Below, one piece after another: positions 5,343-64,000 of a stretch of DNA of 64,000 nucleotides. Under the pieces are notes generated by a model, which saw only the letters and a list, made by a program, of their open reading frames with translations, was not told the origin of the DNA and did not search any database. The position numbers and the translations under genes are program-made. The stretch covers positions 1 through 64,000 of the forward strand of contig JALBUN010000045.1 in the NCBI GenBank assembly GCA_025174535.1, written 5' to 3'. The stretch is from Cantharellus purpuraceus (lineage: Eukaryota > Basidiomycota > Agaricomycetes > Cantharellales > Hydnaceae). The stretch's first letter is position 1. Each line of letters opens with the position of its first letter.

Positions 5343-8300
5343 CTAGGCCAATATCATGGATACAATAACAGCAACTACACATGCAACACCCGTCATGGCA
5401 GCATGCGAAGCAGCTCCGTTCTTTCCGGTAGAGGTGGCAACCGCTGTCGCTGTCGAATGAAGCTGTCCCACGCAGCGATGGTCGCACTCGGCCAGATGGT
5501 CAACCCCAACGTTGTCCCGGAGCCAGTGAAGATCGGATTGGTCTCTGCAGGAAGAATATCGTTCACAAGTGGATGGTTTACACCGACGGTGGCAGACCGA
5601 TCCGTTACGGTTCGACCCTAGCACGAATTCACGCACAAAGACGAGTGCCTGCCAAATGCATAAATTGAAGTTGCTGATGAGTATCAAGATTGGACCCACG
5701 CGCAGAAAGGGATGGTGTATGAAAGTGAACCGCTCACCCGTTCAGGCTGCAATTGTGGGATTAGATGGCCTGCCTTATCGAAAAGAACGTAGGTGATGTT
5801 TCGTTCCTGGTGGACGATACCAGCGATTGCACCATCGTTGCCGAACCAAGCTGTCGATGGCTTTTGCGTGAACCCTTGGATCCCCCCAAACGTCGTGTTC
5901 TGAATTGTGGCTGGTCAAGATATTGAGGTGAGTACTGCAAAGTCCCGAAAGTGGAAGCCGGTGTACTTTCACTGCCCAGGTGTGAAACAAGGAGGTCGTC
6001 GCTACCCGAGTAGATAACCCACGAGATATTCATCGCACTGCTGTTTGTAGCCAGGTCTGTCAAGAAAGCACCCGATCTAAGAATGGCGCAAGTGAGTCTC
6101 AATTCCCGCCGTAATCAATACAACTCTTACTCGACACCTGAGTAATTCAAGGATGAGGATCGACGTCAAATGCTGATAGCGTATGCACTTACTCGGGTCA
6201 CCGAACTGATTCGCGCCAGCTGTACACGGCATGTGATCAGTTGAAGAAACTGACGCGCAATGCACAGACTCACGCTTCAAAAAATTGGTAACATTGTTCT
6301 CGAACGGATAATTGATGCTCGACGTCCAATTCTTGCTCGTCGGCGCGTGCAGCGCTGCACGGGTACGAGGATCTACAAAACGCACCACGTTAAAACCTGA
6401 CAGACTAGCATACACATGGCACATGCCATTCATGAAAAAGGTGCCAACCTGAGGTGCCTCAGGGTTCAACGCATCGGGAATGCTATACACATCAAAGCCA
6501 GGCTGCATGGAAAGTGGGTCATTGATCGCTAGTCAAACATGTAACGTTAATAGGTAAGTCTTTGGTGCCTATTGATCATAGACCAAGCCACGCACACCAC
6601 GGCAGCGTGAAGTTGACCGCGTAGTCGATCAGCTCAATGAGCAGGAAGCACTGATAGAACGGGTCAATGGTCCCATTGGTGCGCATGGATAGATCACGCT
6701 TCCACGATATCCTTCTCTCCTCTCGCACTGCCAGTTCGCGCTTGCTCATGCTCGACGATGATTTTGATGTCCGGGAAAGGGCAGACAGGAATGATTCCTT
6801 GGTAAGAGTCTTAGGCTGCGCGAGGCCAGCTGCCTGGAAAACGTTTGTACTGTTGATGATCTGGTTAGGGTGGAGAGATGGAAAGGGGCCGGCTTGTGGA
6901 TATGTAAGGTTCAAGTCGTAACCACACAAGTGACGTCTATACAAATGACATCAACGGGTGACAACAATCAAATACGAAACAATGACACACTGTTCCTTGA
7001 AGTAGTTGTATACCTCTGGATCAAAATCTATGAGCTGTGGGTACGTCTCTATGACGCGAAGCTATGAGCGATTGTCGGTGAATACTGACCATCATACGAG
7101 GAGGTTACGAAAACGTACCACCGGCAAGTCTTCAACGACTGGTTCCGAGCCTATGGAACCATCTGGGTGGGGTGTCAATGGATGCACCTGGACAACAAGG
7201 ATCCACTTACCGCCAATAGCGAATTTGACGAGGTGGGCTGGGGGGTTTGGCGTGGAGAAATATGTTTTGGTAATGCATGGTATATACGTTCCTGGCGTTT
7301 CATGAGTTGGGTAGGTTAGGGGCCACCCATGCTGAACGTACCAGCATAACTCTACGGAGAATAGTTACAATAAATACACTCGACAGATAGTTTCATGACT
7401 GTTCTTACCTCGCCTGTGAGATACAAAGGTCGTTTTGCAAGACTGGGGAAGACCTGAACTAAGTTCGATAAGAAGCCCATAAAGTCGGTTCCCATCTGAT
7501 CCTCTGAGAAAATGTACCCCATGCTATCGGCGGTCGAGAATCCTGTTCCAACCTGCAGACAAAGGCTGAGACTAAACTGGGATGGAGTGAAGCTTCACTA
7601 GCACTGACGGGCTGGTCAATCCAGACGCTTGACAGACGCTGTGAGTACAGAAAAGAACAGATAAAACGTCAGAGGACTTACGTATCTGCGAGTGAATTTC
7701 AACCAAACTCATTTTTAACAAGTGACAAGTCATCGGCGACGTGCAATGGCCCATTCTGGAAACAACATTAGACTGCTCTCACAACTTAAATCATAGAAAG
7801 TGAGAGCATACCTCAAATAACATGCCGAGCATGCTGGAGGGGGCCTAGCAAGCCGACATCTCAGGCACTGGGCCATTATGCATAATGCACGACAACCCAC
7901 CTCCATTGAGCCAAATCATCCAAGGACTGGGGTATAAAGCAAAAGGTGTGAGCGGTGGGGCGACACAATGCAACAGAAGAGCAGTTGGGGGAAGAAAAGA
8001 CTGACTCGTTGCTGCTGTCATTCGCGTTCCCGGTCAGGGAGCCATTACTTTTCTCAAAAGCCCAAAAGAACAGGGTATTGCCCGCGATCGTGGCCATGCA
8101 AGCAAAGAAGCCAATTACCACGAGATCACGCTAGACCCGACATTGCGTACATGACATCCATGCACCGTCGAGTATAGTGTAGACAGTAGACGTACAGACA
8201 AGTCATTGCTAACACGCGGTGAAGAGTGAAAGGCAGATGTGTCGTCCGCCTGGACCAGCAGAAGCCTCCTGAGCACCTTCTGAGGCACTTTGTGAATACG

Positions 8301-46929: not shown

Positions 46930-48387
46930 GGTTATGGGCCCCGCTGCCTAAGCGAATACAACTGAAATTTGATATATCTACTATGGCTACTACTACCCCC
47001 CAAGCTCCTTCTACCGACAGACTAGCAGCTCGCTTATATGACTTTCCATATCTTGAAGATGACAGTGTGAATTACCAAGCCTGGAAGTATCGAGTCCAGA
47101 CCATACTTGAACTTCAAGGCCTCTGGAATGCTGTAGAAGGAACAGAGTCTGACCAAATGAAAGTATGAGATGCTAGAGCACAGATTACTCTGACTCTAAA
47201 GGACGAGCCATTAAATGGTGTCATTGGCCTTGACACTGCACAAGCCGTCTGGGAGAAGCTCAGTGGTTGCTACAAAGGGAAAGGCACACAGAAGATCGCT
47301 TACCTCATTGGCGAACTTTTCAGGAGTAGTCTTGTGGACACTGAAGCCCTTGAGCCACAGATCAACAAGATGCGGCACACAGCACGCACACTTACTGCAC
47401 TCAAGAATGCAATAAATGACAACCTTGTTGCCATAGCCATCATTCTTTCTTTGCCATCCTCCTATGCCACACTGCAGACTATACTCATGTCACAGGACAG
47501 TCAGACTACAGAGGATGTCATAGCGAAGATTCTATCTGAGGAATCTAGAAGGAAAGAAACAGCTGCACAATCTGCATTCCTGGCAAAGTTCCACTCCAAT
47601 GCCAAATCCGGAAAGGATGGCCAAAAGGAGAAGAAACCTACCCGCAAGAAAAAGTGCAAGAACTGTGGAAAACGGCATGCAGGTGAATGCAAGAAAGCCA
47701 AGGCAGATGGAAAAGAGGAGAAACCTACAGACAAGCCCAAAGGTGATGCTGTAGCCAAGGTGGCAATAGCCAAGTCTAGCGGAAACCCTCCCATTCAGCT
47801 GTTTGTGGCAGACGAACTTGCAGCTCAGAAGGAAATGCTCTACAAATGGATCATTGACTCAGGTGCATCAGCACTGATGAGCTCCCATAGGGAATGGTTC
47901 ACTACATACCGCAAGCTCAATCTGCCACAGAAAGTATGGCTTGGCGATGACCGTTACATTTTAGCTATTGGAGAGGGCCGCATAGCTCTCACCATGGATC
48001 TAGATGGTCATCAGCTGCCTGCAATTGTACAAAAGGTGTTGCACGTACCAGAAATCCAAGGAAATCTCCTCTCCGTCTCCAGCCTGACTCAAAATGGCCT
48101 CCGAGTCACTTTTGACCCCAACAACTGTTGCATCTATAATAAAGGCGGTCAGTTAGTTGGAATGGCACATGCAGAAGGAAGTCTCTATATCATACATGCA
48201 CGAGCAGCCTCATATGAGCAGGCCTACATTGCCACAGCACCTGTAGAACAAAGCGAAGCAGTACTCACTGCTAAAGCTGAAAAAAATCTCCAAAGCTACA
48301 GTACATACCTGGCACTGCCGTCTGGGTCACCTTAATGTCAATTCTGTCCTAGAAATGGCCTGCAAAGGATTAGTTAATGGCATGGTG
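46930..48387 (+). mobile_element. Ty1/copia element 2: gag, zinc knuckle, protease; truncated
   Basis: gag starts at 46983 ('MATTTPQAPSTDRLAARLY', 'YQAWKYRVQTILE'). An in-frame TGA at about 47166 interrupts it, after which the same frame continues to 48335. Features in order: gag core, basic region, a CCHC-type knuckle 'CKNCGKRHAGEC' (about 47659), the aspartic protease triad 'DSGAS' (about 47857), and 'VPEIQGNLLSVSSL' before the integrase pre-domain. After a frame change near 48300, 'GHLNVNSVLEMACKGLVNG' is the GAG-pre-integrase segment. It stops at 48387, where chromovirus A sequence begins. Integrase, RT and RNase H are lost. Confidence 0.85.
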
Positions 48388-49012
48388 ATGTTACGCACTA
48401 GGTCCGATTGGGGTCGGAGATTGGGTCGGAGGTTGGGTCGGAGGTTGGGTCGGAGTTGGAGTATGTCGTGGGGGTTGGAACGGACTTGGCTTCAGCTTAT
48501 GTGCTGCGCCCTCACTAATACCGATGTCTGAGACTTTGGAGACGGAGTACGACTTAGGGAGTTAGGATCGGACTTAGGAGCTAGGCGTGATTCGATATTC
48601 AAACTGGGGAATGAAGTCCCCAGTCAGGCAACTTAAATACATATTTGAAATCTAATAATAATTACTCCGGTGATGGGTCTCCGAGGCCGACGGCCTTACA
48701 TGAGTATGTCCGAGTCTGACAGGGACAGATGTCCGGGTTCCTATGGTGATGCTGATGCATCAATCGGAACCGGAGACGGATGGGTGGAATCGGCGGTGAC
48801 AATTGGACAGGTAAATGGAGATGTGGTGGTTTCCAAATGGAGTATAGATTTCATGTGCGTGGGGATCTGAGGGGATCGGACAGGGATCTGGGCGTTAATG
48901 AATATAGTCATAACAGTATCTCTCCATTTAAGGCCGAGCCCCTGAGGCCTCATGTCCGTGGATTGAATAGGTGAGACGATTGGGCGCAGTCAGAGTTATA
49001 CTGGGGGTCTGG
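48388..49012. mobile_element. Terminal (LTR-like) region of chromovirus A with CGGA-type tandem repeat
   Basis: Starts tgttacgcac at 48388, immediately after interrupted copia coding sequence, so this is the outer end of element A. A 14-bp unit, ggttgggtcggagg, recurs four to five times at about 48410-48470. More cgga/tccg motifs follow, then ordinary sequence to about 49000. No second copy exists in the window because the other end of A is missing, so the LTR cannot be delimited. Confidence 0.6.
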
Positions 49013-49013
49013 A

Positions 49014-49028
49014 GACATATAAAAGGAG
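49014..49028 (+). promoter_or_regulatory. TATA-like element upstream of the plus-strand ORF of element A
   Basis: acatataaaaggagg on the plus strand, about 30-35 bp before the first candidate codons of the accessory ORF. It points to plus-strand transcription, convergent with the minus-strand pol gene. It could instead be the LTR promoter core. Confidence 0.5.
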
Positions 49029-49043
49029 GGGCATGATTGAGGT

Positions 49044-50678
49044 CTTATCCTCAACGATGTGGCCGAGCTGGAGCAGTTGCTCTTGGCCTGACGGAAGGAA
49101 GAGGAAGAGGAGCGGAAACGGAAAGAGGAGGAGGAAGCAGAACGGAGACAGAAGGAGGAGGAGGAGGCGGAACAGAGACGGAAGGAGGAGGAGGAGGTGG
49201 AACGGAGACGGAAGGAGGAGGAGGAGGCGGAACGGAGAGAGGCGGTGAAAACGGAATGGAGAAGGAAAGAGGAGGAAGCGAAGGCCGAGAGGGCCCGCAT
49301 GGTGAAGGAACTTGCGGCAGCGATGGAGGCTGCGAGACTGAAAGAAGTGGAGGAGCAGGCGCACGAGTTAGAGGCGGCCATGGAGGTAGAGGAGGAGGTG
49401 ACCGGGGCAGGGGAAACCAGTCACCCAGGAAGTCCGAGTGTGCCAATACGGCCAGGGACCCCGGAAGTTGCCATCATCTCCGGTACACGGACAGAGGCAA
49501 CTCGTTCGAGGATTGTCACTGCGGAGGACTCGCCGTTACGCCCACGGGCACGGCCCTTATTTGAGTTAGGGGCAGCTGAGGAAGATGATGCAGCGGAGAC
49601 AGAGAGGGCGGAGGTGGAAGCGGATCCTGATGCCAATGTGGAGCTTGATGCAACTGCGGAGCCCAAGGCGGGCATGGAGGTTGGGATGGATGCGGAGCCG
49701 GATCCTACTTTGAATTCTTACGAGGAGATGGCTTGGGTAGCTGCGGTCGAGGCTCGCAAAAGAGCGGAGCTCTATGCCGCTACCACTAAGAAGAACCTCG
49801 ACGTTGCAGTCTTTTCCCTGAAGGCGTACCCGAGTGCTGATATGGAGAAGTGAGAGGCGGACTGGAGGGTCATATGGTGCAAGGTGGAGAGTCGTGTGTT
49901 GGCAACCCGTAAGAAGGAGCTGTGTGTCGTGAGGTTGGCGATTCAGCTTCGGAAGCGTGAGATGGAGAAGGCGGTGGCAGAACAGCAGGACAAGGAGGAG
50001 GAGAGGGAACGCTTGGAGGCCACAGTGAGAAGGGGCGGACCACCCAAGGCTCTGGCTCCAATGGAGCCATTTGGCGGACCCGGCGTAACTTGCGACTTAT
50101 GTCGTGATGTGGGTGTGGAGTGTGTGTGGCCTACCGGCCCGACTCGCCGACTTCGGTCCTGCGATCGTTGTCAGGGTCGGAAAGGAGGGTGTAGGATCGA
50201 TGGGAAGTTCGATCCCCAGAGTTGGAGCGTCAAGCCCCGATTAGTGGTACAAGGAGGGGCAGAGAAGGAATCGGAGGGTCATCCGACCAAAAAGAGGCGG
50301 ACGGAGACGGGCGCTGTGGCAGCCGGGGGTAGTGGCGTTGGATCGGAAGGGGCAACGACTGGTGCAGGTACAGGGTGCGTTTCGGCGCCCAATAGCACTG
50401 TGGGCCAGCTTATCCGGCTGGTTAACCTACAGTTGGAGCACCTTCGGCGGACGGAGGGGTTGTTGGTAGACTTGGTGAGGATGATGAAACGGAAGGAGGT
50501 TCTGGAGGGTCGTCGGACAGCCGAGTTACATCGGTTGCGGAAATTCATGGCCCTGTTGGATGAGGATTCGGACATGGGGGATGAGAAAGATTGGGTGTTG
50601 GATGTAGAGAGTGATGAGGAGTCGGAGACGGAGCCTGAAGTAGATAAGGGAAAGGGGACAAGGAAATGCAATGTATAA
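49044..50678 (+). pseudogene. Accessory plus-strand ORF of chromovirus A: coiled coils plus Cys6 cluster
   Basis: One reading frame runs from about 49044 to the stop at 50676-50678, broken only by TGA codons at about 49089 and 49851; the original product was about 540 residues. The N-terminus ('ILNDVAELEQLLLA') leads into repeated E-E-E-E-(A/V)-E-(R/Q)-R-R-K units (49095-49330), a strong coiled coil. A Ser/Pro and acidic linker follows. A second Lys/Glu helix (49884-50030) precedes a cysteine block at about 50090-50190: C-x2-C-x6-C-x12-C-x2-C-x6-C, with 'SCDRCQGRKGGC' as its second half. Next come a Lys-Arg 'KKRR', a Leu-rich helix ('LIRLVNLQLEHLRRTEGLLV' region) and an acidic tail. The cysteine spacing fits the fungal Zn2Cys6 consensus. 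Similar proteins are, to my recollection, common in Agaricomycetes as 'hypothetical'. Convergent to pol, 148 bp apart. Function unknown. Confidence 0.7.
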
Positions 50679-50826
50679 AATAAAAAAGAAAATGATTATA
50701 AATTTCGGAATGGAGAAGAATGAGGCGGAGTGATTCCTTCGGAGCTTTTTGAGCAGGCTGGTAATTTCCCTTGACTTGTAATAAAATGGTGATGCGAAAT
50801 AATAGAATTAGCATTAGTAATCGAAC

Positions 50827-53800
50827 TTAAAGATTCATAAGAGGGCCAGGTTTGTCTGGATAAGTGGAGTGAAAATCAGAGATGGATTCGGATGCATGAT
50901 CGAGTTTGGATGTGGAGATCCATGAAGACTCTTCATCGGTGCCTTTGTACCCAGTCCATTTGACTAAGTACTGGAGCTTGCACTTGTATCGACGGTCGAT
51001 CTTCGAGTCCAGGATCTCGGATATCTCATATTCATTATCTCCTTTGATGATGATCGGGGGAGGTGGAGGTTGTGTGCAACCGGAGATCTCGTTCGTGGTA
51101 GCGGGTTTGAGCATTGATATATGGAAGACCGGATGAACTGCTCGGAAGTGGTCTGGGAGGCAGAGGGTGAAAGACCTGCTGACCACACGAGCAACGACCT
51201 TATAAGGACCTAAGTATTTCTTGGAGTTTCTTCGATGGGCGGGTGGTCCGGAAGTGTTCGGCCTTAACGAATACTTTGTCTCCAATTTGCAGGTCTGGAG
51301 CTGGGATGCGGCGTCGGTCTGTGGAGACTTGATATTGTTTCTGAGCATCGGAGATGGTCTCTCGGAGATGTTGGTGTAGTTGATCGAGGTCGGTTACAAA
51401 TTGGCGGGCTTTGGTGGAGGCAAGTTCTTTCTCGGGGTGGACGGAGATGTTCGGATGGTAGCCTTTATTAGCAAAGAATGGAGAGATGCCGGTAGTCGCA
51501 TTTGGAGTGTTGTTGTAGGCAAACTCTGTGATCGGAAGTAGATCAGCCCAGTTGTCTTGTTGATAGTTACAATAGATTCGGAGATATTGTTCCAGGGACT
51601 GATTCATTCGTTCCGTTTGTCCGTCTCCTTCAGGGTGGTATCCGGAGGTGAAATGGAGCTTCATGTCGAGAGCCTTTCCTAATGTGTGGAAGAAGGAGGA
51701 CATGAACTCCGAGCCCCGATCGGACGTGACATGCGATGGGACTCCGTGTTTAGAGAATACGTGGAGAACGAACAATTTAGCTAGCGAGGTGGAGGTGATG
51801 GTGTCATGCGTCGGAATGATGACTGTTTGGTGAACCTGTTGACAATCACGAGTATGGTGTCATATCCGAGCGATGGGGGGAGCTTCTCTATGAAGTCCAT
51901 GGAGATGGAGTTCCATGGTTGCTCCGGGATTGGAAGTTGTTTGAGCATTCCGTAGGGTTTGTGCCTTTGCAATTTTGAGCGCATACATGTGGTGCAGGAG
52001 TAGCAGTAGTGTTGAATGTATTCCCGCATTTTTGGCCATACATAGTCTCGTCAGATTAATCCTTGTGTGCAATTTTGCCCGAAGTGGCCGGAGATCAGGT
52101 GATCATGATAATACTGCAAAACTCAGAGTCGGAGGCTGTTGGCGTCGGGGACGTATATCCGGTTGTTGTGTCGGAGGTGTCCTTCAGGGTCAAGTGACCA
52201 TTTTGGATCGGAAGGGTTGTCCAAGTGTTTAACTGCAACAGGATCGGATCGGAGTGATGAGCAGATGTCGGAATGGAGTTGGTCAATGTCCATAATGGTG
52301 ACAGCTTGGAGAGTGGGAGTTATGAGGGTGGATGCTCATAGGGACGATACCAGCTGCTCGTTAGTAAACACAGGATGAAGGTTGTGGGGGTTTACAGTGG
52401 CATAGTTGCTATTCCCCTCTTTAGGGTAGACGTCCCAGCGTCTAGTTAGCGCGTCAGGCTTTGCTCCTAGTCAACCTGGATGGAAACGGATAATGAGATT
52501 GAACTGAGATAGGTATTCAGACCATCGGACCTGTCTCCGGGTGAGCAGTTTCATTGTGGAGAAGTATTCCAAGTTCTTGTGGTCAGTTATGATGTCCACC
52601 GGATCGGAGGGACCTTCAAGGTAGTGTCTCCATATCCAGAAGGCTTCATATATGGCAAGGAGCTCTTTGTCATGGACGTCATAGTTCAGTTTGGGGGGCG
52701 TAAATGTATGCGAGTGAAAAGCGATCGGGTGGACTTGTCCGTCGTCCAGAGAGATGATGGACAGGATCGCGGCAAGTGCATAGTCGGAGGCGTCGGTCTC
52801 TAAAAGGATGGGAACGTCTGGAACCCAATGAGTCAGTATCGGAGCAGAAGTAAAGGCCTTTTTCAAGGTCTCAAAACTCTGTCTACATTCGTCAGTGAAA
52901 TTCCATTGGATACCCTTCCTAGTGAGTTGGGTGAGCAGAACAGTGATATCGGAGTAGCCGTGAATAAAGCAGCGGTAGAAGTTGGCGAACCCGAGGAAGG
53001 ACTGTACGTCCTTGACTTTCCGGGGTTCTGGCCATTCCTGTATGGCTTTGATTTTGTCGTCGGACATTGTTAATCCTGCCGGGGAGAGGATATAGCCTAG
53101 GTATTCGACCGAGTCGGAGTGGAATTTGCATTTGTCAGTGTGGGCGAAGAGGCCATGTTTTTGGAGACATCGGAGTACCTCTCGGACATGTGTCCGATGT
53201 TCTTCTTCGTTGTCCGAATATACCAGAATGTCGTCTAAGTAAACGAGGACGGTCACATCGAGGAGGTCGGTGAAGGTATCATTCATGAACCTCTGGAAGT
53301 TGGCCGGAGCATTGGTTAGTCTGAAGGGCATGACACACCACTCGAAAGATCCATATTGTGTGTGGAAGGTCGTTTTCCATTCGTCGCCTTCTCGGATGCG
53401 GACTAGATGGTAGGCGTGTCGGAGATCTATTTTGGAGTAGATCTTAGCCTTTCGAGGACTCTCGAGTAGGTCTGTGGTGTGGGGTATGGGGTATTGGTCT
53501 TTCTTGGTGATCTTGTTGAGCCCACAGAAGTTGACGCATAGACGGAGTGATCCGTCCTTTTTGCGGACAAATAGGACCGGAGCTCCATGAGGAGATAGGG
53601 GATAGGGATGGGCGGATGAAGCCTGTGGCCAAGTTCTCATCTATGAATGTCCGGAGAGCCAGTAGCTCTTTTTGTGATAGCGAGTAGATAGGGCCAAGCG
53701 GAGGGGTGGAGTTGTCATCCAGTTCGATCTTGAGATCATATGGTCGGTGTTCTGCTAGGGAGTCGGCTTTAGACTTGCTGAACACGTTGGCGAACTCATG

Positions 53801-54440
53801 ATACTCCTTGGGAACCATAGAGAGGTCCGGTGGAGTGGATCGGGCAGAACGAGCGGCGAGGAATATCGGGTCGGAGAGGTGGACCTGGAATGTGTGAGAA
53901 CCGTCCAGCTTGCTTAGTCTGGTGAAGACCATAGCGTCCACCATCGATATAAACGGAGGGGTAGACAGAGTATCTATCGGAGCGGGGTCAGCGGAGGTGG
54001 AAGATAATTTCGCACCTAGAGTTGCTGGTGACGTCAGGGATGACACAGCCTGTACTGGAGAATGGAATGTGATATGGCCCAATGCCCAGTCAATCAACGG
54101 ATTGTAGCGGGTGAGCCAGTTATGGCCGAGAACCACAGAACAGCTGGAGTCAAGCAGAGTGACATAGAATGTAAGGGTCTGGATTTCTCCGACAGAAAAA
54201 CGGATAGACAGATCTATAGCTCGTGAAATAACAGCATTAGTAGTGCCACCAAATAATCGGAGTGGTATCGGAGTTATGGTGTATGTATGGAGTTTATGTA
54301 AATCAGAAAAAGAGGAATTGAGGAAACAGTGAGTAGAACCGGAGTCAATTAATGCTTGAATAGTGGTATCGGGAATGGAGTCGGAGTGGACGAGGAGGGT
54401 AAGGGAGTCGGAGTGGGAAAGAGCGGATGCATTCAGGCGG
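50827..54440 (-). mobile_element. Chromovirus A (Ty3/gypsy) pol: PR, RT, RNase H, IN, chromodomain
   Basis: Minus-strand frames in order. Protease 'ALIDSGSTHCFL' (about 54360). A linker with 'PKEYHEFANVFSK'. RT with 'KDGSLRLCVNFCGLNKITKK' (about 53550) and the active site 'VLVYLDDILVYSDN' (about 53245). RNase H with 'LLETDASDYAL', 'DKELLAIYEAF' and 'IITDHKNLEYF' (52800-52560). Integrase zinc region 'YCYSCTTCMRSK', then catalytic Asp 'SMDFIEKLPP' (about 51900), 'SDRGSEFMSSFF' (about 51715) and 'GDGQTERMNQSLEQYL' (about 51610). Finally a chromodomain, 'EYEISEILDSK', 'QYLVKWTGYKG', 'ESSWI', ending at 50827. Frameshifts near 53600, 52450 and 51780-51350 make it inactive. Gag and the 5' LTR are missing: the frame runs into element B at about 54440. 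The plus strand is dense in CGGA throughout. Confidence 0.9.
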
Positions 54441-55653
54441 ACCTCGTCTGTCGTACGGGGAGTACCAATGCAGCCCTCAGCATCTGCATACACACCTTGG
54501 TCATCTATTAGGTGACCAAGGCAATCTATACTTGTTGAGTATAGATTGATCTTATCCTTGCTCAGGAACATATGTGCTTTTCTGAGCTTGGTGAATACCA
54601 TCTCTAGGTGGTGTTTGTGCTCTCATATAGTATGAGAGTACACAAATATGTCATCCAGATATACATGGACGAATCTTCCAATATATTCCCAGAAGATGGC
54701 AGTCATGAGCTGCTGAAATGTTGAGCGGGCATTGCAGTCCCCTTGCTGCATGACTTAACTGATGAATGTCCCCAAGACGGTTGCAAATGCCATTTATGGT
54801 ATATCCATTGGTCTGACGTGTATCTGTTCATATGCCTCAGACATATCAAGTTTAGATTGATATGTACAGCAGGCAACATTGTGTCTAATGTTGTCCTGAT
54901 CAGGGAAGGATGTTACATCCTTCACTGTATTATCATTCTGTTCGCACAAGTCGAACATGGTGTGGAGCTTCCCATTTTTCTTAGGAATGCATAGCATTGG
55001 TACAGCCTGGGCTGTAGCCAATACTCACCATTTAGCAGTGGTGTATCACAGAACTTTCTCTGAAAGTTCTGCTTGATAGTGCTCTGGACACTTAGGCAAG
55101 CGATAATGTATTTGCTTGTCAGGATCCACAAGATTAATCTCATGGTTAACTTCTCTAAATGGGGGAAGTTCTAAGGGTATGCTGCCAAATAGGTCAGTGT
55201 ACTTTTCTTTCTATTGATCCCTCAACTGAGGGATCTGACCAGCCATGTAAGCGGTTGGTCCTTCATGAGATGAAGCTATTTGCATCGTGCTCTTATTTGG
55301 ATCCTCCATTGGGGGGTCCTTTACTGAGTCTAGTCCTTCTTCTAGGAAGGACTGTGTTGTGGGTAGCTTGTGTTTAGAGTTACCCCCTTGGCGTTATTTA
55401 TTCATGCCAATACTCCTTCTTCATATTGAGTTTATACCCCATGATGGGGTATGAAGAGCATCGGTATTATGCTCCTCATTGGTGGGGACTTCTTCAGTTC
55501 CCATCATGATTCAGCCTAGGCCATTAAAGTCCAGGCATATTCCTAGCTTTCATAGGAACAGGGTACCAAGTATTACATCATAATACTCAACATTGGTGAC
55601 ATCAAAATATTCTTCAATGTCCCAACTACCAAACTTTATGGTAGTGTGAGTAC
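54441..55653 (-). mobile_element. Gypsy element B, RT and 3' protease part (hairpin-rich)
   Basis: Reading the minus strand down from 55653, the protease tail 'TTIKFGSWDIEEYFDV', 'NVEYYDVILGTLFL' is followed by a TGA codon and 'KLGICLDFNGLG'. A linker follows, then RT: 'MLCIPKKNGKLHTMFDL' (about 54990), 'NTVKDVTSFPDQDNIRHNV', 'SKLDMSEAYEQIHV' (about 54850), the active site 'VYLDDIFVYSHTI' (about 54645), then a stop, 'KLRKAHMFLSKDKINLYS' and 'LGHLIDDQGVYAD' (about 54500). The thumb then breaks off at the junction with chromovirus A. At least twelve perfect short hairpins interrupt this 1.2 kb. In-frame stops show it is inactive. It is the same element as 60411-63200, separated from it by the 4757-bp insert. 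Confidence 0.85.
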
Positions 55654-55935
55654 TGTATGGGAACTGGTTTTCCCTTAAAAAAGATCTTGTTTAAAGTCCT
55701 GAAACTGTACAATTTCACTTCATGGCCTTAAAATATCAGCATATATGTGCTGCTTTCTCTTGATTCAGGGCCATTCAAATATTCTCTATTTTTTCATATT
55801 TTTTCAGGATTTTTCCATGCAGAAATGAGTCCACAACCTTGTTGTTCTGCTGGGTGAAGTTTTGGGACCCACATGGACCCACAAACCTTTGCAGATGTCA
55901 GCAGCTTCAAAGTCAGCCAGAGTCACCTGGACAAC

Positions 55936-56273
55936 TGACTCATTTTCAATCACATGACTCATTTCAATCTCCGACTCAATCTGGTCACCACTGCCAGTAA
56001 ATCCTCAATATCTTCGCAACCACTGCACCTCCTGACCCCGTTTTTAGTGGAGAGTTCAATAGAAGCCATGCCTACCCATAGCTGTGCTGATCATCCTGGG
56101 AAACAAAGTATTGACTGAGTTATTTGGGTAATGGTGACTCATGCAATGACTCCTGCCATGACTCATGCTATGACTCCTTCCATGACTCATACCATGACTC
56201 CTGTGATTACTCATACTATGACTCCTGCTCTGAGTCACACTATGACTCCATCCATGACTCATGCCATGAGTCA
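55936..56273. promoter_or_regulatory. Array of eight TGA(C/G)TCA (Gcn4/AP-1-type) sites
   Basis: Perfect heptamers begin at 55936, 55955, 56135, 56159, 56183, 56231, 56255 and 56267. From 56135 on they are spaced at about 24 bp or multiples of 12, inside a 12-bp-period repeat 'atgactc(a/c)t(g/c)c'. TGACTCA is the classic site of fungal Gcn4/Cpc1-family bZIP activators. The truncated copy at 2064-2568 keeps three such sites. Binding is an inference. Confidence 0.6.
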
Positions 56274-56559
56274 GAGCAAATCCAAGCAGCTCATTGGCTA
56301 GGAAACTTCCACCCTCTTCTCACATATTCCAGTAGCTTCCAGTAGCTTCCATCTATTAATAGGTAGAATTTTCCAGTAGTATTAGTCAGCTCCTGTAAAT
56401 ACAAAAGGAGGCCATTCTGCCTCTGAAATGAATAACCATTTTCTACCCCATCATTTGCACATCAGTGTGACTAGAGTGACATACAGTGTCATCCTCTATA
56501 TCTTAGTAACTGTTGATTGTCCTGCCATTAGTGCTCTTGTTTAAGTTACTAGTGTGTAC

Positions 56560-58062
56560 TGCCTTTGCAGAGCATTAGAATCTTGAACTCGTGTGAAGCA
56601 GTTGCCAGACTACTTCACACATCGCTGTTACCCGCTGACAAGCCAGGATGCATCGAGGACGTATATCGAACCACTCTGACAGTCCAACTCCGCCAGCGTC
56701 TTTTCATATCAACCTTTAAATAGCGCCGCAACTCCCTCTCTACCTCAGTCTCTAATTCTAGCCATCGATCGTCACTCGTGTTTCATCGCCATCAATCATT
56801 ATCAGCCTTCAATTCACACCAATCCTTTCATCATCATTCACATGGCTTCCAATTCTATTCCCCTCTCCAACATCACTTCTAATAATACGTCACACTGGTC
56901 TCTGGACACAGAGGACTATCAAAAATACGCCGAGCTCCATGGACATGTTAAGCCACCTCCACGTGTCAAAATACTTCCAAAACTCTTTCAATGTCCAAGA
57001 TCCCCACCATGTCTCTCTTATGCCATTGGTGATCCCATATTCTTTCACAATTCCATTGAACCATATACATTCCTCGGCATTTTGCCTCTATATCGTAACA
57101 CGGATAGATGAGTCGAACGTGAGGTAGAATTTCAGTTGCCATCGCTGACCTATCCTCCCACTTCAATCCGACTCAGGTTACATTGTGTCAGGCAAAGGGA
57201 CCGAATACCCTTGGAACGGGATACCATGTGGAGACGTATCACTAATACAATAAGGAGTATTTGTTGTGGATGATGACTGAAGTCCTCATGTGACTCAGGG
57301 TCAATTTACCTTCGGAGCCGTATGGAAGATGGTATTGGTGGATGTTTCTATTGTTCTTTTATATGACTCACCCCTGTTTCATCTTTTAATTCATTCATAC
57401 ACGACTTACTCATCCTTGTTCTATTTTTGGTTCTTTTATTACTCATCACCCCCTATTCTTACAAACATTACCCCTATCTGTCGCTTCATTTCTCCATGAT
57501 TTCCCCATTAGTAGTTCAACTTCACACGCTTCGTCAGCTGGCTTGATCAGCATTTCTTGCATCATATCACATCATTTGCTCCTCATATTGTGTTGTTGTG
57601 CCCTGGGGATTTGTATATAAAAGGGCGCTAGTTTTCGCCTTTGGAATGGATCAACAAGTTTTCAGCCCACGCTCTAAAGTCAAAGTCCATGCTCTAAGTC
57701 TACACTCTACGCTCTACATCACAATCCATCAGCTCTACACTGAGGTAAAGCACCTTGGTTCAACAATCAGATTTCCCTCTGCCACCGAGAGGTCGCTTCT
57801 CCTGAAACCAGCTTTCGCATACCTCTCAACCGGGCTCTCCATCCTCATCCAGTCACAGAGCACGATCAGCCATCGGGACCGACCTTTTGCTCCCATCCTC
57901 ATCCAACCACAGAGCACTATTCCACTTCCTTGTTATTAAGTGCTACCTCTACCCCTCGACCTGATTGATCTTTGGAGTGCTGAACAACTGCGTTACACAC
58001 CGTCTGTTTGCTAGGACCGTTGCACGCAGGCTTATAGGATCTATTCCTTAAGCGAACCAACA
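56560..58062 (+). repeat. Left arm of 1.5-kb inverted repeat
   Basis: Reverse complement of 58166-59712, nearly identical by eye apart from one roughly 45-60 bp tandem duplication in the right arm (about 58390-58460) and scattered single changes. Contains a TATA-like ctttaaatag (56715), the 89-codon ORF at 56842, a second TATA-like tgtatataaaagg (57609) and an LTR-like end ...aagcgaaccaaca at 58062. The arms face each other with their CA ends inward. Confidence 0.9.
56842..57111 (+). CDS. 89-residue ORF of unknown function (left-arm copy)
   Basis: 'MASNSIPLSNITSNNTSHWS' start, a Lys/Pro-rich middle ('HVKPPPRVKILPKLFQ') and 'LSYAIGDPIFFHNSIEPYTF'. A TATA-like motif lies about 125 bp upstream and a C/T/A-rich leader precedes the ATG, the layout of a real promoter. 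Copies at 59161-59430 and 59549-59965 (minus) preserve the frame with few changes. It resembles no family I know; it could be the 5' part of a gag gene. Confidence 0.45.
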   Translation: MASNSIPLSNITSNNTSHWSLDTEDYQKYAELHGHVKPPPRVKILPKLFQCPRSPPCLSYAIGDPIFFHNSIEPYTFLGILPLYRNTDR

Positions 58063-58165
58063 CCGCTTCAGAGTGTCACTGGTTGGATGGTTGGATTCAT
58101 CCACCTACTTCCTCTAGCCTCTAAGTGCATTCCCCTCTTTTTGGAATATCTGGACCCCTAAGCAT
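58063..58165. other. 103-bp spacer of the large inverted repeat
   Basis: Unique sequence between the two arms (ccgcttcagag ... cctaagcat). The first and last bases of the arms here are ...ACA and TGT..., so the spacer may be the DNA that lay between two inverted LTR-like ends. Confidence 0.7.
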
Positions 58166-59712
58166 TGTCAGTTTGCTTAAGGAATAGATCCTATAAGCCT
58201 GCGTGCAACGGTCCTAGCAAACAGATGGTGTGTAACGCAGTTGTTCAGCACTCCAAGGTTGAGGGGTAGAGGTAGCACTGAGTAACAGGAAAGTGGAATA
58301 GTGCTCTGTGGTTGGATGAGGATGGGAGCAAAAGGTCGGTCCCGATGGCTGATCGTGCTCTGTGACTGGATGAGGATGGAGAGCCCGGTTGAGAGGTATG
58401 CGAAAGCTGGTTTCTGTGACTGGATGACAATGGATAGCCCGGTTGGGAGGTACGCGAAAGCTGGTTTCAAGAGAAGCGACCTCTCAGTGGAGGAGGGAAA
58501 TCTGATCGTGGAACCAAGGTGCTTTACCTTAGTGTAGAGCTGATGGATTGTGATGTAGAGCGTAGAGTGTAGACTTAGAGCATGGACTTTGACTTTAGAG
58601 CGTGGGCTGAAAACTTGTTGATTCCTTCCAAAGGCGAAAACTAGTGCCCTTTTATATACAAATCCCCAGGGTACAACAACACAATATGAGGAGCAAATGA
58701 TGTGATATGATGCAAGAAATGCTGATCAAGCCAGCTGACGAAGCGTGTGAAGTTGAACTACTAATGGGGAAATCATGGAGAAATGAAGCGACAGATAGGG
58801 GTAATGTTTGTAAGAATAGGGGGTGATGAGTAATAAAAGAACCAAAAATAGAACAAGGATGAGTAAGTCGTGTATGAATGAATTAAAAGATGAAACAGGG
58901 GTGAGTCATATAAAAGAACAATAGAAACATCCACCAATACCATCTTCCATACGGCTCCGAAGGTAAATTGACCCTGAGTCACATGAGGACTTCAGTCATC
59001 ATCCACAACAAATACTCCTTATTGTATTAGTGATACGTCTCCACATGGTATCCCGTTCCAAGGGTATTCGGTCCCTTTGCCTGACACAATGTAACCTGAG
59101 TCGGATTGAAGTGGGAGGATAGGTCAGCGATGGCAACTGAAATTCTACCTCACGTTCGACTCATCTATCCGTGTTACGATATAGAGGCAAAATGCCGAGG
59201 AATGTATATGGTTCAACGGAATTGTGAAAGAATATGGGATCACCAATGGCATAAGAGAGACATGGTGGGGATCTTGGACATTGAAAGAGTTTTGGAAGTA
59301 TTTTGACACGTGGAGGTGGCTTAACATGTCCATGGAGCTCGGCGTATTTTTGATAGTCCTCTGTGTCCAGAGACCAGTGTGACGTATTATTAGAAGTGAT
59401 GTTGGAGAGGGGAATAGAATTGGAAGCCATGTGAATGATGATGAAAGGATTGGTGTGAATTGAAGGCTGATAATGATTGATGGCGATGAAACACGAGTGA
59501 CGATCGATGGCTAGAATTAGAGACTGAGGTAGAGAGGGAGTTGCGGCGCTATTTAAAGGTTGATATGAAAAGACGCTGGCGGAGTTGGACTGTCAGAGTG
59601 GTTCGATATACGTCCTCGATGCATCCTGGCTTGTCAGCGGGTAACAGCGATGTGTGAAGTAGTCTGGCAACTGCTTCACACGAGTTCAAGATTCTAATGC
59701 TCTGCAAAGGCA
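58166..59712 (-). repeat. Right arm of 1.5-kb inverted repeat
   Basis: Mirror of 56560-58062. Carries the minus-strand copy of the 89-codon ORF (59430-59161, one residue different: V for I in 'HNS(I/V)EPY'), the TATA-like motif at about 58658 and the promoter-like region at about 59555. It has an internal tandem duplication around 58390-58460 absent from the left arm. Confidence 0.9.
59161..59430 (-). CDS. 89-residue ORF of unknown function (right-arm copy)
   Basis: Same protein as 56842-57111 with a single visible substitution. Its upstream TATA-like and leader sequences are preserved too. The near-identity of both copies indicates either a recent duplication or gene conversion between the arms. 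Confidence 0.4.
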   Translation of the reverse strand: MASNSIPLSNITSNNTSHWSLDTEDYQKYAELHGHVKPPPRVKILPKLFQCPRSPPCLSYAIGDPIFFHNSVEPYTFLGILPLYRNTDR

Positions 59713-60175
59713 CATATAGAGGCAAAATGCCGAGGAATGTATATGGTTCAACGGAATTGTGAAAGAATATGGGATCACCAATGGCATAAGAGAGACATGG
59801 TGGGGATCTTGGAAGTTGAAAGAGTTTTGGAAGTATTTTGACACGTGGAGGTGGCTTAACATGCCTGTGGAGCTCAGCATATTTTTGATAGTCCTCTGTG
59901 TCCAGAGACCAGTGTGATGTATTATTAGAAGAGATGTTGGAGAGGGGAATAGAATTGGAAGCCATGTGAATGATGATGAAAGGATTGGTGTGAATTGAAG
60001 GCTGATAATGATTGATGGCGATGAAACACGAGTGACGATCGATGGCTAGAATTAGAGACTGAGGTAGAGAGGGAGTTGCAGTGCTATTTAAAAGTTTGAT
60101 ACGAAAAGGCGCTGGTGGAGTTGGACTGTCAGAGTGGTTCGATATACATCCTCGATGCGTCCTGGCTCATCAGCG
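59713..60175 (-). repeat. Third, partial arm copy in direct tandem with the right arm
   Basis: Starting atagaggcaaaatgccgagg (59716), it repeats 59181-59650 with more divergence (about 95% by eye). It carries another copy of the ORF start (ATG at 59965). In this copy the frame runs on through the junction into arm sequence, giving 138 codons (59965-59549), so the C-terminal part is an artefact of the join. Confidence 0.85.
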
Positions 60176-60410
60176 TCCATGAACTCTAGACTCTGGAAGT
60201 CTTATTCATTCCCTACTGCTAAGAAACGTATTACCTTCCTGCGTATCATCTGCATTGACCATTACAACGGATTGTAGCCAAAGTACAAACGTTAAATCGT
60301 TTCTGGAGTTGTGCTGCAGTAGGATTTGATATTCTTCTCAGCTGTTCATTCACGGAATTGTGGTGATTTAGAGTTTGCCCTAACACCATAATTTTGCGGG
60401 TTCCAAAACA

Positions 60411-60600
60411 AGTACCATAATTTATGGTACTCCTGCTCCCAACACATGCTAATTGCAGTGTGATGGGTTGCTCTAGTGCAAAGGTTTTCATACCTGTCAC
60501 ACATGTGAATTCAGGGGATATCATTATCCCCTCACTCCCACTGTCTAATAGACAGTGAGCTAGTGTTCCACCAATCTCCCAATACCCAGAGATTGTTTTA
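60411..60600 (-). mobile_element. Gypsy element B, protease N-terminal part
   Basis: The minus-strand frame reads 'GGTLAHCLLDSGSEGIMISP' with the aspartic-protease D-S-G-S (codons at about 60538-60550), 'TCVTGMKTFALEQPITLQLA', 'VGSRSTINYGT', and is then cut at 60415 by the 4757-bp insert. The DSG codons lie inside a 9-bp-stem hairpin (60539-60557). The remainder of the protease is at 55653 and below. Confidence 0.85.
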
Positions 60601-62715
60601 TTGTCTATGCATGGTCTATCTGGTCATGCTGTTGACTTCTGTCGGCTCCTATGATTATACATAGGTTCAGCTGATCTGTCAATGCTGACAGCAGCTATAT
60701 GCAGCTGTTGTGATTCCCTGCTTGTCAGGAAATTTGTTGCACTACAGAAACGCACTGCATAGGTGTGTTTTGGTGGAATTTGATCATTGGGTTGAATTTG
60801 TATCACATTAGAGTGATACATTGGTGTAGCCTCCTTTTCAGGGGCATCATCTTGGTCGTCCCATTCATATGGTGTGACCTCTTCATCCCGTTCATCAGCC
60901 ACTTCTATAGCTGGTATTTTTTTGTCTAGATGGTCCTTGAGATCATCCATTGCTTCTTCATGTTCTCCCTCTATTGGGGAGAATCTGTCTACATTGTCCT
61001 CCACTATGTGTGAGGACACGTCCTTTCGGACTGCAGCCGATCTTACATTGCCCTTTAGTTTGGGGCAGCTGGGTCGCATGTGACCTGTCTGGCCACATTC
61101 GTAGCACACAATGTTACTAGTAACATTGTTCGATCGATCACCACTTGCATGTGCTGGTGGCTTCGATAATTCATAAACGGTCCTTTGACCCTGTATTACA
61201 GAGTCAAATTTATTTGATGCATGATGATGCATCAGGGTGTATAGGAATCTACACTGCAATCCTTGGATTGCAGTTTCTGGGGTCCAGTCTTGGACTGCCC
61301 TATTGTAGTGTTCTACATTCCTGTAGAACCATTCCTGGGCCTCGCCTTTAAGGCAAGTGCCTAAGTACAATAGCTGAAACTTTGTACTTGATGGCCCTAG
61401 GAGATTGTTCATCTTCAGCCATCATAGCATACCTACTACAAAGATCTTGAACTCTTTGAGATCTGCACCTCCTGCATATTGCTCAGGAGGCAATACTTTA
61501 ATGCCTACCTTGGCAAGTACAGACTTCTCTGGGTCTGTATCTCTATTATCAACTATGGCTACTCACACCATGTGAGTAATGCCATCGATAGGATCAATTG
61601 TGTCCAATTGATCTGGTATGCCTTGACCTTCTAGGGTCAATGGCACTGATTGTTCCCTGTTATGGGGAACATCTTCTTGAGGTACCCATTGTGTATCTCA
61701 TTGCTCATGGTGGGTGTCTCCTGAAAGGCCCACTGCTCATATGCGTTGATAACTGTTCAGTGCATGTCACAACTGTCAATTTAAATCAACAGCCACATTG
61801 AGCTCTTGCTGGGGCCACTGCTCTCTAAACAGCTGGCTGAGCTCCTGCTCTGCATGTTTAGCCTTCCATTTGAGGGCTAATCTATGTTTATGAGAAGCCT
61901 CAACTTCTTGTTGTTTCCATAGCTTGATCTCTTGATCGAGCTCCTTTGCCATAGATTGAGGAGTTTCCTCTTCAATCTGGATTGGTAATCCTTGCTGCCT
62001 CACAGGGATTACTGGGTCTCTAATTCCCTCCATTGGGAGAATTTCATTTCCTCTGTCTAACTGATCATTTGGTTGGACCCTCTCACCCCAGGGAGATCCA
62101 GACTCTCCAGATTCAGATTCTTGTTGAGAATCTGGTCTTCGGCGACATGACTTGCATTGCTCAGAGTTCTCTTGGAGTGATTTTAACATTGTTCCTAGCT
62201 CTGCAATTTGCTGCCCTATAGTAGTGGCAGCATGCCCTGCTTCAGCAGCCATCTTAGCTGCCTGAGCACTAGCTTCACTAATGCTCTTCATCTCATGTTG
62301 ATTACCTATGAGTTGTTCAGTCAATCTTATGATTGACCTGTAGGTTTCATGCCACTCCATGCTGCATGATTCCCAAGTAGAAGTATTGCTACTTCTACTT
62401 GTGCTCATATATTGAGCATGTTCCTTTCCTTTAGGAACATTGGAGACAGTGGATGACTGTCTCCTCCTTTCTTCTCTAATCAAAGAACCACTCAATGAAG
62501 GGTTCTTGTTTGACAGACAATCTATTGTGTGATTGTCTGTGTGGTCTTGCAATTGCAGTGACTCTTCTAGAGTTTTCCTTACAAGAGGTCCCTGTGACTT
62601 CTCTAGGGTCTAGCTCCCCTTCCTGGGAGCTTCTGCTGCTGGCTACATGCCACCGTTCATCATTTATGATGTCCTGTGCACTGCCAGCATGACTCACTCT
62701 ACTGTGAGTCATCAT
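60601..62715 (-). mobile_element. Gypsy element B, gag
   Basis: The minus strand starts near 62715 ('MMTHSRVSHAGSAQDIINDE'). After a frame change near 62550 it continues through a Ser-rich part and a helical region ('QIAELGTMLKSLQENSEQ'). Then come a charged coil ('AKELDQEIKLWKQQEVEA'), a broken stretch around 61420-61780, and the gag core 'KFQLLYLGTCLKGEAQEWFY' (about 61370), 'HHHASNKFDSVIQGQRTV', with a CCHC knuckle 'CYECGQTGHMRPSCP' (about 61100). An acidic tail follows to about 60624. Several frame changes and stops show it is dead. The sequence is saturated with perfect short hairpins that mostly do not disturb the readable protein. Confidence 0.85.
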
Positions 62716-63400
62716 TATGATGACTCCTTCTTTCTTCTATCTTTGTAGGCTAACTAAGTTAGTTACTCACTTATATGAGTGACTGGGGGGAGTTGGTATA
62801 CATCTGTACACCAGCAACAGCCGGTTTTCTAGTATTGACTAGAAAACTTCAATAATGAGGAAGAATCAATTGATTCTTCCTTTGGAAGTTCAAAAAAGTG
62901 TTAATGGGTGTCTTAGTTCACACCATTGCACAGAACTCAACCAAGTGTATTGGTTGGGCAATGTGTTGTACAGTGTGGTAGTTAACTAAGTTCTATCTAC
63001 TATAAATGGACCCACATGTGTACTGGGTCCACTGGCTTACATAATAACTATACATATGCACCCTATAGATGCATATATCTACCAAGAGAACAGCATTCCT
63101 TAAGGGAATGCTGCATATATTAATTATACTTATATATTATAGTAAGTAAGTACCTTGGGTACTTACAACAATGCATATACTATTATTTGAAGACTCAACC
63201 ATGTTAGATGAATAGCAATTTATGCACTGGCAGGACATAACACCTGGCTCTTGCTGAGCACCAGAGCACATGCATCACAGTCATCTTATGCAATCCTACC
63301 AACTGGTCCATGATATATGCATTTTTTTCACTATAAAAGGGTTGCACCATGTGTTTTGGCCATTTCTGTTTAGGGTGCATGACCACTGCCAGTCATTTTG
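62716..63400 (-). mobile_element. Gypsy element B leader / probable LTR, hairpin-rich part
   Basis: Upstream (minus-strand sense) of gag. Non-coding, with further perfect hairpins including a 24-bp palindrome at 62858-62881 and 9-bp-stem hairpins at 62824, 63091 and 63146. Hairpins cease at about 63170. A TATA-like cactataaaagggt on the plus strand is at 63330. LTR limits cannot be set because only one end is present. Confidence 0.55.
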
Positions 63401-64000
63401 ATCATGCACTCACATCAAGACGTATTTGCTAGTAACAGTCCTGTTGCATACCACCAGTTCCTCTGGGCCAGCACTGATGCTACAATCAAAATCAAAGCCC
63501 AAGATATGATGCAAACCATGCCTTTGATGCTTGTTCAGAAATACATCAAATATGTATATACAATCTATTTTCCTCAAATTTTACACAATACACTTCAATT
63601 CAAACTTATTTTCATATTTCAATATGACTCTCAAATTTTACACAATATACTAGATTAAAACATATTTTGATATTTTGGCATAATTCTCAAAAACAATTCT
63701 TTTTTTCCTCATTTAGTGGTGGCAACTCTGTTAAGGGAACATCCAAATATCATTGATTCTTCCTTATACAATACTTGTAACATAATTTGAACTATCTTTA
63801 ATCCCCACCTGGTATTTGTATATCTAAATAACCTATACAATACCAATTATATTAATACATACATTACTGTTATATTCATGTAAACAGTTATGTTCAACCA
63901 AATGTCTTATCTTTTAAAGTTTATTAAAATATAGAATATATATTTGTATTTATGAAAATTTCACACATCTGAAATCTTTTAAGATATCCAAATTGTAACT
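63401..64000. other. AT-rich sequence, short direct repeat, no gene
   Basis: 'tcaaattttacacaata' occurs at about 63575 and 63632. Very AT-rich to the end of the window. A short ORF (63398-63658) has no recognisable content. Confidence 0.5.

Follow-up and report, generated by a model that had tools for sequence, protein, structure and literature searches.

Short perfect hairpins saturate a Ty3/Gypsy-like retrotransposon family of Cantharellus purpuraceus, and their loops are inverted in some copies

Contig JALBUN010000045.1 of the basidiomycete Cantharellus purpuraceus (assembly GCA_025174535.1) raises the question of how a protein-coding retrotransposon can become filled with small perfect hairpins. 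Our window, i.e. the whole stretch of 64,000 nucleotides that was analysed (positions 1 to 64,000 of the forward strand), carries a copy of a retroelement, here termed element B, which on structural grounds is classed as a Ty3/Gypsy long terminal repeat (LTR) retrotransposon. The copy is split by an insert:

54477..55653, minus strand: reverse-transcriptase (RT) portion of element B, with 13 perfect hairpins
55654..60410, no strand assigned: foreign insert splitting element B, 4757 bp, with one stem of at least 8 bp
60411..63167, minus strand: 5' portion in element sense, comprising 5' LTR, leader, gag and the start of the protease region, with 34 hairpins

Counting as hairpins all perfect inverted repeats with stems of at least 7 bp and loops of at most 10 nucleotides, we found 47 in the two parts of the element (13 in 54490-55650 and 34 in 60411-63170), and a second count restricted to stems of at least 8 bp gave 31. 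An earlier sequence-only reading of this DNA had reported 38 and 29, respectively. The saturation that it described is real but its totals were somewhat too low, and while all 22 hairpins that it listed were recovered in place, some had been given stems 1 bp too short. Longer than reported are 54522-54548 (11 bp), 55049-55071 (10 bp) and 61108-61129 (11 bp, loop 0). The same reading had named similar counts after dinucleotide- and codon-preserving shuffling, or an equal density in neighbouring elements and host genes, as results that would speak against it. In 100 dinucleotide-preserving shuffles of each part, the summed means were 2.6 hairpins, against 47 observed, and 0.75 for stems of at least 8 bp. 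The RT and gag parts had means of 0.81 and 1.79, respectively, for stems of at least 7 bp, with no shuffle exceeding 3 and 6; for stems of at least 8 bp the means were 0.23 and 0.52, with no shuffle exceeding 2 and 3. Shuffling of synonymous codons was applied to another copy of the family, L032, in 11 coding pieces that are free of stops and partly overlap (4206 bp). These contain 48 hairpins, whereas 200 shuffles gave 4.8 on average and never more than 12. Since this shuffle removes most hairpins, it is mainly the choice of codons that encodes them. Their counts by codon phase in L032 are uneven (23:15:10).

Perfect stems of at least 7 bp in L032 number 82 with loops of 0-9, 25 with loops of 10-19 and only 3-9 per ten loop lengths from 20 onwards, such that the excess is confined to loops of 0 to roughly 12-18 and background is reached at about 20. 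Observed and shuffled counts compare as 307:269 for stems of 4 bp, 85:74 for 5, 46:19 for 6, 45:5.8 for 7, 30:1.2 for 8, 17:0.3 for 9 and 18:0.1 for 10 bp. Stems of 11 and 12 bp occur four and three times, the excess thus spanning 6-12 bp, and no stem longer than 12 bp is present in the pieces counted by stem length. With this profile of stems and loops, the hairpins are a distinct class and not a drift of composition. Direct repeats of at least 8 are few in L032 (7 at offsets 1-40, a plain count without shuffle control).

As far as sampled, the hairpin state is specific to the family of element B in this genome. When the 40.15-Mb assembly was searched with the gag side, at least 94 DNA match rows were obtained, a lower bound for the family that counts rows and not copies, as one copy can give several. 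All of the 30 fetched copies are affected, with 5.1-9.2 stems of at least 8 bp per kb across the matched stretch, and so is the LTR, neither of which had been noted before. The 30 loci include the window's own copy (L001), the nearly identical L010, L011, L013 and L014, and L017, a 543-bp slice wrongly cut at a contig end that provides the top density of 9.2 per kb. L011, L013, L014, L017 and in places L003 are near-identical or short and were excluded from some copy counts. Window positions 1-54476 contain 9 stems of at least 8 bp (0.17 per kb), the neighbouring element at 48001-54476 has 0.31 per kb, the 4757-bp insert has a single one, and the best 30 of 150 other RT loci listed have 28 in 104,412 bp (0.27 per kb). 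One stretch of another, nearby family, L064 (48% RT identity, one of four places at 44-48%), is devoid of such stems over 3301 bp. Protein relatives are plentiful (155 were found, with identities of up to 86%). On the DNA level, a search of viral contigs with one protein or alignment yielded no relative outside the genome, and a search of genome contigs yielded a single one, L065 (40% RT identity), with 2 stems of at least 8 bp in 5252 bp. The contig of L065 is filed under a cyanobacterial metagenome-assembled genome (Rhizonema), and its RT probably stems from the fungal partner of a lichen.

Copy L032 (L032:517-8342) is truncated and carries a foreign insert at 6504-7072. Stems of at least 8 bp are densest in its 3' spacer, at 19.5 per kb (11 in 564 bp); the corresponding values are 7.9 for LTR plus leader, 6.6 and 6.4 for gag and protease, 7.3 for RT-RNase H, and 6.3 and 5.7 for the integrase parts. 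The further 3' reading frame of copy L083 has 5.6. LTRs average 10.1 per kb (20 copies), compared with 7.3 for what remains of that aligned stretch (29 copies); in L083 alone the LTR reaches 17.9. Hairpins end at the 5' edge of the element, with no stem of at least 8 bp in the 510 bp upstream of L032 or in the 833 bp beyond the LTR in the window, and the foreign insert within L032 contains one in 556 bp. With 5' flanks free of such stems and inserts near background, the hairpins were hence acquired before insertion. In the RT piece, residues are conserved at 0.73 of 15 positions in arms and at 0.81 of 104 outside, numbers that are too small to decide.

In some copies the loop is inverted, being an exact reverse complement of the loop that other copies have. 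Six hairpins are concerned: five of the 64 listed sites (alignment columns 96.5, 959, 1163.5, 1926 and 2025) and, in addition, column 764, which was automatically classed as not paired since a flanking CpG has decayed. In genome-wide pattern searches the arms were kept fixed and the loop was read. The six hairpins are:

63146..63166, minus strand: terminal LTR hairpin GTAAGTACC-loop-GGTACTTAC, loop read in 158 genome matches
63054..63076, minus strand: LTR hairpin with loop TAT or ATA
62320..62337, minus strand: gag-region hairpin GTCAATC
62114..62134, minus strand: gag-region hairpin with a one-base loop
61926..61937, minus strand: gag-region hairpin GATC (column 764)
61253..61274, minus strand: gag-region hairpin TGCAATCC

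The hairpin at 61253..61274 has the loop TT in 76 of 83 genome matches and the inverted AA in the other 7, with zero further variants. At 63054..63076, TAT occurs 75 times, inverted ATA 24 times and CAT once among 100 listed of 141 matches. Of 40 matches to 62320..62337, 38 read TTGY or TCAY and two the inverted ACAA or GCAA. The centre base at 62114..62134 is T in nine and A in three copies with paired inner arms, a case that is weak alone. At 61926..61937 most aligned copies have TCTT, and inverted AAGA is present in L012 and L022; these two are neighbours on one contig and their inversions are probably one event. The terminal LTR hairpin reads CAA in 110 matches, inverted TTG in 4 and others in 44; among the first 100 matches listed, CAG occurs 19 times, CTA seven times, TAA once and TTG twice. 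LTRs that have ATA at the one hairpin may carry either CAA or CAG at the other (for example C9:565817 with 565910 and C17:340737 with 340830), so either the inversion recurred or the variants recombined.

Inside paired flanks, exact reverse complements account for one of four 2-base, both of two 3-base and one of six 4-base differences; among the five other 4-base cases, four are the same inverted loop against other variants. Neither the five 5-base nor the eight 6-base differences inside paired flanks are reverse complements. Outside paired flanks, multi-base non-transition differences served as the control and are exact reverse complements in 3 of 94 (2 bases), 1 of 82 (3 bases) and 3 of 110 cases (4 bases), which include the column-764 site and otherwise lie in gapped stretches. 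All these classes count pairs of variants, not independent events. Inversion of a spacer between homogenised arms is described as a signature of template switching in passages of a published study (PMC8604942).

The explanation that we favour, with a probability of roughly 0.57, is that an active ancestor of element B was repeatedly rewritten by short-range template switching. A polymerase copying the element, most likely its own RT, would hop between the arms of a small imperfect inverted repeat and then back again, and each hop would turn one arm into an exact complement of its partner and might invert the loop. Through many such cycles, perfect hairpins (stem 7-12, loop 0-12) would have arisen and persisted across the element at a spacing of about 70-85 nucleotides, and protein constraint would have pushed the changes to synonymous positions. 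A burst of the family would have followed, after which hairpins would have decayed passively in the integrated copies, to a considerable extent through conversion of CpG to TpG or CpA. The sequence-only reading had offered three options (template switching, selection for a structured RNA and a host process); the first is the best supported, given six loop inversions and Watson-Crick pairing without preference for G.U, though the arm copying that it envisaged was not detected, as detailed below.

Among 54 hairpin sites, 26 are common to at least 10 of 29 aligned copies and 19 occur in five or fewer; many arms thus predate the burst of today's copies. The hairpins were largely made earlier and are now being lost. 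In 26 copies, 98 former-CpG dinucleotide columns contain 1070 CA, 1014 TG and 278 CG. At 11 facing CpG positions in stems, 102 of the 189 pairs that have decayed on both sides are complementary, as compared to a permutation mean of 93.4 (p 0.09), and with all states taken together 106 of 250 are (mean 97.0, p 0.10), i.e. arm decay since insertion is without significant coordination in this permutation. Neighbours, inserts and sampled families near background, in combination with no detectable joint change of arms, place the switching before integration, and this in turn points to reverse transcription. We infer that switching also created the arms and would locate it in that step. More tentatively, and at less than even odds, the element's RT may be an intrinsic arm-hopping polymerase that folds back at small quasi-palindromes in each transposition cycle, its hairpin-making pressure having overwritten codon choice. 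If this holds true, the hairpin signature would identify arm-hopping polymerases from sequence alone.

Several points weigh against repeated template switching as the origin. The building step is unseen and only its by-product, loop inversion, is seen. As switching between perfect arms becomes visible as loop inversion only, the inversions attest to switching at the hairpins but not to their having been built by it. A check for one arm copied from the other in aligned copies, suggested by the sequence-only reading, gave none among 52 clusters of private changes (25 copies) at p<0.05 for a nearby inverted template, in a test that reaches recent changes alone; the clearest cluster is the loop inversion of L018 itself (p 0.117). 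At the LTR end, plain loop variants (27 of 100 listed) far exceed inverted ones (2 of 100), and further loop changes without inversion are present among the classed differences between copies. Some of the inverted loops have arms of 7-8 bp, compared with more than 9 bp for the yeast inversions described in parts of PMC8604942. Simple switching gives no reason to expect the 12-bp ceiling of the stems. A higher density outside coding sequence is clear for no more than a single 3' spacer (11 stems over 564 bp) and, with an LTR mean of only 10.1 per kb over 20 copies, does not make a main argument. Finally, the small excess of complementary CpG pairs leaves room for some conversion after insertion, and the rare inversions could be of post-insertion origin.

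Among the alternatives, selection for structure in the RNA of the element, whether to aid its packaging, to stabilise it or to let it escape RNA silencing, survives best but is unlikely. Loop inversions would then be a by-product of perfect hairpins. The encoding of hairpins via synonymous codons and the similar density across fetched copies agree with such selection, the 12-bp ceiling would fit a limit imposed by function or harm, and the sense strand folds with a mean z of -3.95 (15 windows) as compared to -0.10 in 20 control windows. However, folding is almost as strong on the antisense strand (z -3.41; controls -0.76), with mean folding energies of -63.8 for antisense and -63.5 for sense. 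Furthermore, G.U pairing, which a selected RNA structure should accept, is not favoured over A.C beyond the shuffled expectation: stems of at least 8 bp with G.T number 49 and those with A.C 71 (7.9 and 6.3 times the shuffled means), the figures for stems of at least 9 bp are 32 and 48 (15 and 16 times), and stems with G.A number 32 (2.6 times). One-mismatch stems with G.U and A.C are equally frequent (21 vs 21), a count that partly doubles two loci (L007 with L032, L016 with L033), and stand at 4 vs 8 with identical local sequences counted once. Loops of 0-2, which are too tight for RNA, occur in 15 of 105 stems of at least 7 bp. Upkeep of pairing through G.U pairs and compensatory changes, by which genome-scale ordered RNA structure is judged, was not seen. 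Lack of a G.U preference and like folding of both strands speak against a selected RNA structure, and this option of the sequence-only reading stays unsupported.

Even less probable is that host replication or repair switches templates at hairpins in integrated copies. Loop inversions are known from yeast chromosomes, as passages of PMC8604942 describe, and some of those seen here are rare and could be recent. A process acting on inserted DNA is nevertheless difficult to reconcile with the near-background density of the nested inserts, of the flanks and of the other 30 RT loci in the same nucleus, with CpG changes in paired arms that are not significantly coordinated (p 0.09) and with the 26 of 54 hairpin sites common to at least 10 copies. 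Insertion of small mobile palindromes, as with the Rickettsia palindromic elements mentioned in a part of PMC6649704, is highly improbable: a few 3' spacer hairpins have a common CTACC/GGTAG core (by eye), but hairpin sequences differ from each other, the RT piece (alone aligned) has no inserted residues relative to 15 relatives, the sole internal RT gap (2 residues, one relative) is outside hairpins, and the synonymous-codon shuffle alone removes most hairpins.

Further features of the window copy are:

62899..63167, minus strand: 5' LTR, TG...CA, 269 bp, with 3 stems of at least 8 bp; inner end set by eye
61167, no strand assigned: point at which the window copy is missing about 425 bp of the gag sequence that L032 and L033 have
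61065..61110, minus strand: gag CCHC zinc-knuckle CYECGQTGHMRPSC, motif by eye
54841..54865, minus strand: hairpin within the RT stretch TYQSKLDM, for which most relatives have YRSKLDM
54620..54668, minus strand: RT YLDD motif region, by eye, enclosing hairpin 54620-54638

The edge at 63167 is common to 22 loci, 18 of them with distinct flanks (the flank of L003 repeats that of L002, and those of L011, L013 and L014 repeat that of L010). The gene order, pieced together from L032 and L083, is 5' LTR, leader, gag (capsid-like, CCHC), protease, RT, RNase H and integrase zinc domain, followed by the hairpin-dense spacer, the further reading frame, a polypurine tract and a 278-bp 3' LTR. Downstream of RT, Pfam identified RNase H and then Integrase_H2C2, both above cut-off; RVT_1 (27.3 vs 29.6) and Ty3_capsid (21.8 vs 29.1) stayed below. 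A chromodomain-like stretch (GDVTWEP) was noted by eye at L032:7539-7778, where Pfam gave no match. The further 3' frame exists in pieces of 238 and 329 residues without a Pfam match above cut-off; the 329-residue frame, at L083:937-1923 between integrase and 3' LTR, is open in L083. The 3' LTR, L083:2037-2314, matches L032:517-785 at 87% (LTRs from different copies) and is homologous to the 5' LTR in the window. It follows the polypurine tract AAAAAGGGGAGGG, which lies at the LTR start in L083 and is found inverted in L026, and 21 of 47 match rows stop at query 815-816, i.e. at the LTR end (L083:2314-2315). The TG...CA LTR, the polypurine tract before the 3' LTR and the order capsid-protease-RT-RNase H-integrase zinc domain are shared with Ty3/Gypsy elements (Metaviridae), on which the structural assignment to this group is based; hairpin saturation and the extra 3' frame set element B apart.

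Several spacer hairpins in L032:7779-8342 contain the CTACC/GGTAG core (by eye), and some of them may be copies of one another. The near-identical L010, L011, L013 and L014 are spread over three contigs: C1 and C35, in each case close to a contig end, and C37, which has two of them in opposed orientation; perhaps they represent a shared, possibly subtelomeric, block or assembly duplicates. Stops within the RT matches of the genome are almost without exception TGA, the codon to which CGA should decay at methylated CpG, and many RT families of the genome seem to have decayed in this way. The insert in element B holds a long inverted repeat, with a stretch of L031 matching 56635-58066 and, reversed, 58166-59637; a further partial copy is situated at 59714-60173. 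Next to element B, an AT-rich repeat at 63526-64000 is about 91% identical to the foreign insert at L032:6506-6984, part of which also adjoins the 3' LTR in L083.

As a rule, template switching at tiny inverted repeats is encountered in isolated, scattered events. The family of element B seems to carry its accumulated result, with many natural replicas and with loop orientation as a readable marker, and offers a measure of arm-hopping and a means to test whether reverse transcriptases differ in it. In the literature searched, which left most subscription journals out of reach, no hairpin-saturated retrotransposon is reported. As far as parts of PMC6649704 describe them, the coding palindromes of Nematomorpha mitochondria are similar in being perfect inverted repeats in conserved coding sequence, without an excess of imperfect repeats; template switching was put forward to explain them, though without being established. 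Those palindromes are up to 284 bp long and mitochondrial, whereas the stems of element B have 7-12 bp, reside in a nuclear retroelement, number dozens per element and show loop inversions between copies. The family also provides a means of telling whether structured coding sequence stems from mutation pressure or from selection, which was left unsettled for the mitochondrial palindromes. Template switching has also been proposed, in the abstract of PMC8794818, as a route to perfect stems that creates and maintains RNA hairpins; by its title and abstract, that work concerns RNA sequences and DNA replication and not a state extending over a whole retroelement. Finally, switching at short inverted repeats of Saccharomyces cerevisiae, as laid out in passages of PMC8604942, shares with element B the inversion of loops between perfect arms and the short spacers, and differs from it in that element B combines six such sites in one 2-kb stretch of a single family, some with arms of only 7-8 bp, with a massive accumulation of hairpins.

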